From contig OMZE01000004.1 in NCBI GenBank assembly GCA_900315455.1, positions 124,001 to 188,000 of the forward strand: a stretch of 64,000 nucleotides of DNA, given 5' to 3'. A program made the translations under genes and the position numbers. Origin of the DNA: an uncultured Prevotellaceae bacterium (GTDB lineage Bacteria; Bacteroidota; Bacteroidia; Bacteroidales; Bacteroidaceae). The notes under the pieces were generated by a model. It ran no database searches. It was given only the letters and a program-made list of their open reading frames with translations, and was not told the DNA's origin. Shown piece after piece: positions 33,129 to 52,401 of the stretch (its first letter is position 1; every line of letters starts with the position of its first letter).

Positions 33129-33158
33129 AGAAACCCAGGTTTTCTAAATAATTACTGG

Positions 33159-33282
33159 GACTGCGGGCTGGACTCGAACCAGCGACCTGTAACCAGGAGA
33201 TATGAAGTATGACGTAATTGGTCCTTGGAAGGAAATTTCACCTCAAAAACGTTACCGCTCTACCAACTGAGCTACCGCAGTC
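33159..33282 (-). tRNA. tRNA gene with a 50-nt insertion in the anticodon loop
   Basis: Minus strand 33282 to 33159. Acceptor GACTGCG/CGCAGTC (7 perfect pairs), D arm GCTC-AGTTGGTA-GAGC, anticodon stem GTAAC/GTTAC (5 perfect pairs), variable AGGTC, T arm GCTGG-TTCGAGT-CCAGC. The 'anticodon loop' between the two stem halves is 57 nt instead of 7. CCA is not encoded. No cut that leaves a 7-nt loop gives a purine at position 37, so an anticodon cannot be assigned. A consensus promoter lies upstream, so it is probably transcribed. It could be an intron-containing tRNA, a tRNA-like RNA or a pseudogene. Confidence 0.75.
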
Positions 33283-33317: not shown

Positions 33318-33349
33318 CAAAGATAATGAATGACAAATGAATCTCCAAA
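33318..33349 (-). promoter_or_regulatory. Consensus promoter of the interrupted tRNA
   Basis: Minus strand TTTG (33349-33346), 20-nt spacer, TATCTTTG (33325-33318), about 28 nt before the predicted tRNA 5' end. Confidence 0.65.
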
Positions 33350-38877: not shown

Positions 38878-38970
38878 GCAGTACTTTTCATAAAGACCTC
38901 CCTACTCGTCTTGCCTCATATTTGGTGCTACAAGCAGCATCCAAACCTGAAAAAGCCCAAATATATTTTT

Positions 38971-39180
38971 GTTTTCCGCTCACTTATTCGCACCTTTGGG
39001 CTACGCCCGAAGGTAGGCTGCATCTCGGTAAAGAAAATAAAAAACCATTTTTATTTTGCTTTCCGCTCACTTATTCGCACCTTTGGGCTTCGCCCGAAGG
39101 TAGGCTGCATCTCGGTAAAGAAAATAAAAAACCATTTTTATTTTGCTTTCCGCTCGATTTGCACTACCTTTGTCCCCCGA
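38971..39180 (+). repeat. 87-bp tandem repeat with promoter-like hairpins upstream of thrA
   Basis: Units at 38971 and 39058 (period 87) and a third truncated unit at 39145. Each has TTTTG, 19 nt, then CACCTTTG (units 1 and 2) or TACCTTTG (unit 3); the box opens a 10-bp hairpin (38992-39001/39005-39014), followed by AAGGTAGGCTGCATCTCGG and an AAAATAAAAA/TTTTTATTTT inverted repeat. Only the unit nearest thrA keeps an intact -7 box. The sequence 38878-38970 shows nothing else. Confidence 0.85.
39142..39172 (+). promoter_or_regulatory. Consensus promoter of the threonine operon
   Basis: TTTG (39142-39145), 19-nt spacer, TACCTTTG (39165-39172). Leader of about 60 nt to the thrA ATG at 39240. Confidence 0.75.
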
Positions 39181-39239
39181 ATTTGGAAACCAACCCCGTT
39201 CGTAAAGGGGACCCAGAATTTTTAACCCTATCAAAAAAG

Positions 39240-52099: not shown

Positions 52100-52315
52100 G
52101 TGTAATCCTGCTTTTTGAAAGGAGAGACACCATAGGCCGTATCGGTTAGATCGGGATACTCATCAAATTATTTCGAAAACCGGGAATACTCTGTTGTTAA
52201 TGGCGGGCCACATCCCATCGGGACAGTTCCTCGGAACCAGTGGATTACAAAGATTTCAGAGTTCCCAAATCTTAAGAAAACGGAGTTTTCATCACATCAT
52301 CGGTACGGCCTTTTT
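52100..52315 (+). ncRNA. Structured non-coding RNA, 6S-RNA-like candidate
   Basis: A -7 box TATTTTTG (52090-52097) precedes it. A 12-bp closing stem GGCCGTATCGGT (52135-52146) with ATCGGTACGGCC (52299-52310) is directly followed by TTTTT (52311-52315), and further nested pairings stack along the same axis: CTCTG/CAGAG with GGGAA/TTCCC (52182-52193/52257-52266), TTGTTAAT/ATTACAA (52194-52201/52244-52250), and apical hairpins near 52213-52237. A ~180-nt rod with internal bulges and a terminator-like end resembles 6S RNA; the Bacteroidales-1 motif is another possibility. No RFN (FMN) consensus, although ribE follows. No ORF of note inside. Confidence 0.55.
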
Positions 52316-52401
52316 ATTTCCTAACCCTAATTACATCAACACAAGGTGGTAACACATAGAAATGCCACCTCATAAAAATCAGAACTAATAAAAAACACAT
52401 T

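Follow-up and report, generated by a model that had tools for sequence, protein, structure and literature searches.

A tRNA-shaped RNA with a conserved two-helix module in its anticodon arm, probably a Y-RNA-like scaffold of an RtcB-linked RNA-repair system, in an uncultured Prevotellaceae bacterium

The window, that is the whole stretch of 64,000 nucleotides that was analyzed from an uncultured Prevotellaceae bacterium, carries a tRNA-shaped RNA with a complete body on its minus strand (33282–33156), as read from the sequence, and all parts of this RNA are given below on that strand. The Rfam tRNA model (RF00005) spans 33281–33159 over all of its 71 positions, with a score of 51.1 bits (gathering score, 29) and an E-value of 4.9e-8 for the whole window. 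The whole RNA of tRNA form (33156–33282) is made up of a G at position -1, a body of 123 nt and an encoded CCA, and of the 45 tRNA matches in the genome no other has a length of 123 nt. The 7-bp acceptor stem is formed by a 5′ strand at 33275–33281 and its partner at 33160–33166, while the D arm (33257–33272) and T arm (33167–33183) were each recognized from the sequence, from RF00005 and from an alignment of 17 sequences. All three are intact, and by its acceptor stem, D arm and T arm the RNA has the cloverleaf of a decoding tRNA. The anticodon-stem halves GUAAC (33251–33255) and GUUAC (33189–33193, from the sequence and the 17-sequence alignment) enclose 57 nt (33250–33194), and the variable region has 5 nt. 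This agrees with a previous sequence-only reading, which had described intact tRNA arms around a loop of 57 nt. The 3′ end (33156–33166) consists of the acceptor 3′ strand, C73 and the encoded CCA (33158–33156); the G at -1 (33282) faces C73 (33159), and neither this G nor the CCA had been mentioned in that reading.

The insertion forms a two-helix module with a CAA/NATT internal loop and a UACU tail. From its 5′ side, it begins with the first strand of module helix 2 (GAGGUGA, 33238–33244), followed by the NATT side of the internal loop (here AAUU, 33234–33237), the hairpin of module helix 1 (UCCU UCCA AGGA, 33222–33233), the CCAA side of the loop (33218–33221, from alignments A3 and A4), the second strand of helix 2 (UUACGUC, 33211–33217, from the 17-sequence alignment) and a conserved single-stranded tail (AUACUUC, 33204–33210). 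A model, R1, was built from five sequences and run on 15 chosen sources, giving 17 full-length matches at E-values of up to 1e-8, among them the five from which the model was built, with the window included; the score of the window RNA is 127.1 bits, its sequence being itself part of the model. In the alignment of these 17 sequences (A4), which was fitted to the structure under test and leans towards it, 95.6% of 505 cells were paired compared to 72.1% in shuffles and 37–40% in slid controls. By helix, paired cells amounted to 100% for the acceptor stem, 89.2% for the anticodon stem (helix 3 of A4, four pairs), 90.2% for module helix 2 (helix 4 of A4) and 92.4% for module helix 1 (helix 5 of A4). 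Double changes were found at 26 of the 30 pairs of the whole RNA in this alignment, including six of six pairs in module helix 2. RNAalifold, run on the 17-sequence alignment, returned the same helices with two extra pairs, and AT and T of the NATT side as well as UACU of the tail were conserved in 17/17 rows. One of the aligned sequences, L311, has by eye a different, Glu-like D arm; there (L311:4093–4219, plus strand) the module sits inside a Glu-like tRNA body approximately 1.4 kb from a Band-7/SPFH gene.

When the window RNA was folded alone, a different arrangement of the anticodon stem was preferred (-43.9 compared to -33.5 kcal/mol for the drawn fold). The pair probabilities of the anticodon stem were 0.0 in this isolated fold, and those of the insertion helices were 0.80–0.93 (0.82–0.92 for module helix 2).

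Upstream of the gene lies the sequence TTTG-N20-TATCTTTG (33318–33349, with TTTG at 33349–33346 and TATCTTTG at 33325–33318), also noted previously and which we take to be the Bacteroidota promoter consensus; it was recognized from the sequence, the sigma-70 scan being for another type of promoter. CCA is encoded in two of the 17 aligned sequences and G-1:C73 is present in three, the window being included in both counts, and position 73 may be C, T, A or G, leaving no constant discriminator or CCA as an identity element. Aminoacylation is unsupported because G-1:C73 and CCA are not conserved, and a role as a mimic of tRNA-His, suggested by G-1:C73, was rejected on the same count of three. ARAGORN called no tRNA in the window when run without introns; in its intron mode it called a Lys(ttt) tRNA with a 50-nt intron, a call rejected for its lack of support from relatives. 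As to synteny, the BadF neighbor had no nearby tRNA in 29 other loci of the genus, and conserved linkage to AraC or BadF was not found.

The sequence-only reading had proposed looking for conservation of the insertion in related genomes, and this was indeed found, with R1 matching the same insertion in other Prevotella/Segatella, Bacteroides, Chitinophaga and Fluviicola. Long tRNAs with other insertions occur in Flavobacteriia, Clostridia, cyanobacteria and Polyangium. These searches included a pattern (D arm, long gap, T arm) that was run on 299 genomes of the Prevotella/Segatella group and on species genomes. It matched four of the 299 genus genomes, including the bacterium's own, and at least 118 stretches in the species genomes, which were sorted into archaeal intron-bearing tRNAs, tandem chimeras, gaps and a bacterial remainder that includes Chryseobacterium, Winogradskyella, Fluviicola, Chitinophaga, Bacteroides, Segatella, Lachnospiraceae, Oscillospiraceae, cyanobacteria and Polyangium. 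Model matches longer than 100 nt were present in at least eight of the 299 genus genomes among the matches listed, 11 candidates having been scored per genome. A long RNA of tRNA form is present on Segatella copri contig NZ_NMPZ01000008.1 (L218), and contig C8 of genome G058 carries this same RNA at identical coordinates. Five long tRNAs of Lachnospiraceae (L153, L156, L163, L173, and L231) share one acceptor stem and have the anticodons TCT, TAT, GTC, GTT, and TCT, respectively.

A search of plasmids led to a Segatella hominis replicon with a second tRNA-shaped RNA of exactly 123 nt and the insertion at the identical place; the annotation of the plasmid collection is uninformative on this copy because its gene table has no RNA genes. 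In the searches of phages and plasmids, query coverage was at most 20% among the best 20 of 358 and the best 20 of 24 records, and a match on a Prevotella nigrescens plasmid was rejected as an ordinary tRNA-Phe. One exact pattern gave no matches in IMG/VR. In 39 other genomes, the insertion was without a blast match, only pieces of 21–23 nt from the D-arm or T-arm part being recovered. The S. hominis copy was missed by the normal mode of ARAGORN, as was that of the window, and for this reason a family spread over several phyla may easily be overlooked or filed as interrupted tRNAs.

Proteins encoded at 41 loci were clustered and compared with Pfam and NCBIfam, and the neighbor families shared between loci were RtcB, TROVE with vWA_Ro60, DUF2828 with DUF7788, WYL regulators and a RING/TerD protein. 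Genes of RNA-repair type (RtcB, Ro60, DUF2828, RING/TerD or WYL) accompany 37 of the 48 bacterial long tRNAs among the matches listed, on stretches no longer than 8 kb, where the bacterial set was defined by at least six of seven acceptor pairs and no N, and where the representative neighbors were chosen after clustering of the 41 loci, 36 of which are among the 118 tested. In the same test and among the matches listed, such a gene was found at none of 38 archaeal loci, the archaeal rows being sorted by title, and in nine of 32 other non-archaeal rows; a neighbor of this kind was absent from the stretches of the remaining 11 bacterial long tRNAs. The DUF2828 proteins resemble TROVE proteins over most of their length (hhalign probability 87), and by profile comparison the DUF2828/DUF7788 proteins of L163, L176 and other Clostridia loci look like relatives of Ro60.

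The RING/TerD protein falls below the cut-off of Pfam Prok-RING_4 and has a match, also below cut-off, to the MXAN_6230/SCO0854 RING family. It was found in 41 of the 299 genus genomes, in two of them by weak partial matches only. All eight genus genomes with a listed long model match carry this protein; two of these (G097 and G285) had been found through the protein itself, and the other six (four by the pattern and two by the model) give 6/6. Conversely, at least eight of the 41 genomes with the RING protein have a long model match among the matches listed. An AlphaFold model of the protein from L148, made with an alignment of six sequences, had a mean pLDDT of 71 and a pTM of 0.44; its N-terminal part was helical and its C-terminal part mostly beta. 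Using this low-confidence model, Foldseek matched TerD (3ibz, probability 1.00, E 1.5e-3), and nothing else credible was found among its best 50 matches, the others having weak E-values and being taken as noise. No relative of the protein was found in the PDB, PADLOC had no match for five RING/TerD proteins, and no sequence relation to Ro60 was detectable (hhalign probability 0.1), nor was Ro60 found among the Foldseek matches of the model.

In the bacterium's own genome, rtcB (6901–5729) adjoins the RING/TerD gene (5187–2923), both on the minus strand of contig C91 (L271), and the window RNA lies apart from this operon on contig C89, from where it would act in trans. Copies of tRNA form lie upstream of the RING gene in G058, G097, G179 and G285 and directly 3′ of rtcB in G086 and L312; in G086, rtcB is itself preceded at 1 kb by the gene for a WYL regulator. 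The copy and the RING gene of G079 are on different contigs, and those of G193 are at the ends of different contigs in an orientation compatible with adjacency.

The module recurs, circularly permuted, in leaders of the RING/TerD gene beside rtcB. A motif, written after reading the same 30 leaders to which it was applied, gave 48 matches in 24 of the 30 on the coding strand and none on the opposite strand, some of the 48 lying in tRNA-like copies; the other six leaders had no match. At least 11 of the 12 pairs of the two helices, together with the ATT loop side, are present in 34 of the 48 matches, compared to a mean of 0.30 and a maximum of four in 200 sets with shuffled tails. Pairing alone is not telling, as 41 of 48 matches reach 10 of 12 pairs and 30.8 do so by shuffling. 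ATT stands at the corresponding place in 38 of 48 matches, and the leader hairpins have UACUUC or UACUCC in the manner of the tail of the window RNA. Ten matches lack the combination of 10 of 12 pairs with ATT, and eight of these are in tRNA-like or minihelix copies, as would be expected if the strands are permuted there. The gap between rtcB and the RING gene of the bacterium's own genome has four motif matches, one of which sits in a minihelix composed of acceptor and T arm only (L271:5475–5381, 39.9 bits with R1).

A gene of this form could be that of a tRNA with a new small intron, the insertion being excised and the exons joined by RtcB to give a decoding tRNA. RtcB, which is a member of a tRNA-splicing ligase family, shows linkage to the wider set, and joining of the flanks in silico gave five of five stem pairs in 28 of 46 bodies among the matches listed, 21 of the 46 also having U33 and a purine at 37, with Clostridia and cyanobacteria prominent among the 21. 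The shuffle rates per row for the 28 perfect stems were only 0.01–0.26, however, and the upper pairs of the existing anticodon hairpins can form without excision. With the window copy, the best excision tested pairs three of five positions with neither U33 nor purine 37 and leaves no normal 7-nt loop, upholding the previous statement that no simple excision would do so. In three of the 17 aligned copies, the conserved tail is followed after just 1 nt by the 3′ stem strand, too little for splicing to yield an anticodon loop; the module has thus been retained in copies that are unable to decode. Its presence outside tRNAs and the differing anticodons on one acceptor stem in Lachnospiraceae also speak against excision. 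A new intron is therefore a quite improbable explanation of the family, and an intron is unlikely in the lineage of the window RNA, though it may apply in other lineages. Known introns fit no better: group I introns also interrupt tRNA genes in bacteria but are 200 nt or more in length, whereas the insertion has approximately 50 nt and no group I family of Rfam was found at E-values of up to 5 in 231 nt, in keeping with the misfit pointed out from the sequence alone. Archaeal and eukaryotic BHB introns resemble it as short insertions in the anticodon arm of a tRNA gene, but the window RNA is bacterial, has no fitting splice product and has a module that also occurs outside tRNAs.

The intact anticodon hairpins of other lineages we take to be either ancestral or bait, and the RNA as a whole might be a bait sacrificed to anticodon nucleases or a sensor of them, with tRNA damage being reported through its cleavage and its resealing by RtcB. 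This would accord with the RtcB and WYL regulator genes linked to the wider set, with the tRNA body whose anticodons change between sister copies and with the rtcBA operon of Salmonella, reportedly regulated by damaged tRNAs (PMC7790460). Some copies are devoid of any anticodon loop, though, and YrlA fragments are reported as not detected in Salmonella under damage (PMC7790460), so bait or sensor is an unlikely function. By far the least probable account is decay of a tRNA copy after a chance interruption. For the window copy, the location away from the operon, the less than ideal isolated fold and the lack of a blast match to the insertion in the 39 other genomes would all suit decay, but every arm is intact, a promoter-like sequence is present and the module has compensatory changes in 17 sequences. 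The sequence-only reading had left three options, of which a tRNA-like RNA with another job is favored by the conserved covarying insertion, the linkage of the wider set to RNA repair and the module in a gene leader; decay is disfavored, as is a new intron in the lineage of the window RNA. As judged by sequence comparison, the RNA has a full tRNA body with a conserved two-helix module in its anticodon arm, and this module is found permuted in the RING/TerD leader. We take it to be neither a decoding tRNA nor, in its lineage, an intron-containing precursor.

Of the known RNAs, the one it most resembles in its parts is YrlA (RF02553), with which it shares a tRNA-like T arm, acceptor and D arm, a stem at the position of the anticodon stem and an RNA-repair setting. 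By eye, it has D and T arms of YrlA type and a stem at the anticodon-arm position in a permuted order. The Rfam consensus of YrlA runs Y stem, T arm, capped acceptor hairpin, D arm and Y stem, and if this is opened in the acceptor cap and its Y stem is closed, the result has the topology of the window RNA, which is circularly permuted relative to YrlA, ends at the acceptor stem and has its module inside. The window RNA is thus best read as topologically a YrlA opened at the acceptor end. By score it was rejected as a YrlA, reaching 14.5 bits (E 2.1) against a gathering score of 69, which is at the level of chance. A further difference is that the Bacteroidota members are linked to the RING/TerD protein, which has no detectable relation to TROVE, while TROVE occurs in some of the other lineages. 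YrlA itself was found at or above cut-off in pattern-matched loci with Ro60-like genes, with two in Novosphingobium (L121) and one in Blastocatellia (L140). In Leptolyngbyaceae (L118:4531–3999, minus strand) there are four tandem copies of tRNA form, three at the tRNA cut-off, with TROVE and rtcB genes in the stretch, and weak YrlA matches of 27.8 and 23.3 bits, both short of the cut-off, run from a T arm through the acceptor into the D arm that follows. Burroughs and Aravind reportedly described in 2016 a novel tRNA-like molecule in RNA-repair systems, beside Y RNAs, and this may be a related RNA. A description of an RNA of the window type was not found in the literature searched, most subscription papers being outside its scope.

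Taken together, we consider it probable that the window RNA mimics tRNA and serves as a Y-RNA-like scaffold in an RtcB-linked RNA-repair system. YrlA is reported to tether Rsr via its basal stem and PNPase via its tRNA-like domain (PMC8394870), and a ROT/TROVE protein is described as a platform for RNA repair with a tRNA-like partner (PMC7824862). As such a scaffold, the window RNA would be transcribed from its own promoter and have its ends processed like those of a tRNA. The module would bind the RING/TerD protein, by analogy with the basal stem of bacterial Y RNA that binds Rsr (Ro60), as we infer from the leader of its gene and from co-occurrence. The tRNA body would be the effector end, which may engage tRNA-handling enzymes (RtcB, nucleases or PNPase-like partners) or compete with broken tRNAs. 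More tentatively, and with somewhat less than even confidence, Y RNAs and long tRNAs may be two circular permutations of one ancestral tRNA with a scaffold-protein-binding module in its anticodon stem. The module would then be a portable part of tRNA bodies, acceptor–T-arm minihelices and leaders, through which a single repair protein would receive its tRNA mimics and also come under the control of its own ligand. The scaffold reading provides a candidate RNA partner for RNA-repair systems with no recognizable Ro60 and a test case for the role of RtcB in bacteria, and it suggests a route by which Y RNAs came to mimic tRNA. The presence of the module ahead of the RING/TerD gene makes both protein binding and self-regulation directly testable.

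Some other features of this genome were also observed. A tRNA-Arg(TCT)-like gene (L060, G000:C48:77475–77737) seems to be truncated in its T arm, and there is no intact copy with a TCT anticodon among the tRNAs listed for the genome. The window has an open reading frame (38911–39225, plus strand) in whose translation a stretch of approximately 30 residues is present twice. It also has a Bacteroidales-1 RNA (52135–52316, plus strand, 133.5 bits), a family that has been suggested to be the 6S RNA of Bacteroidales.
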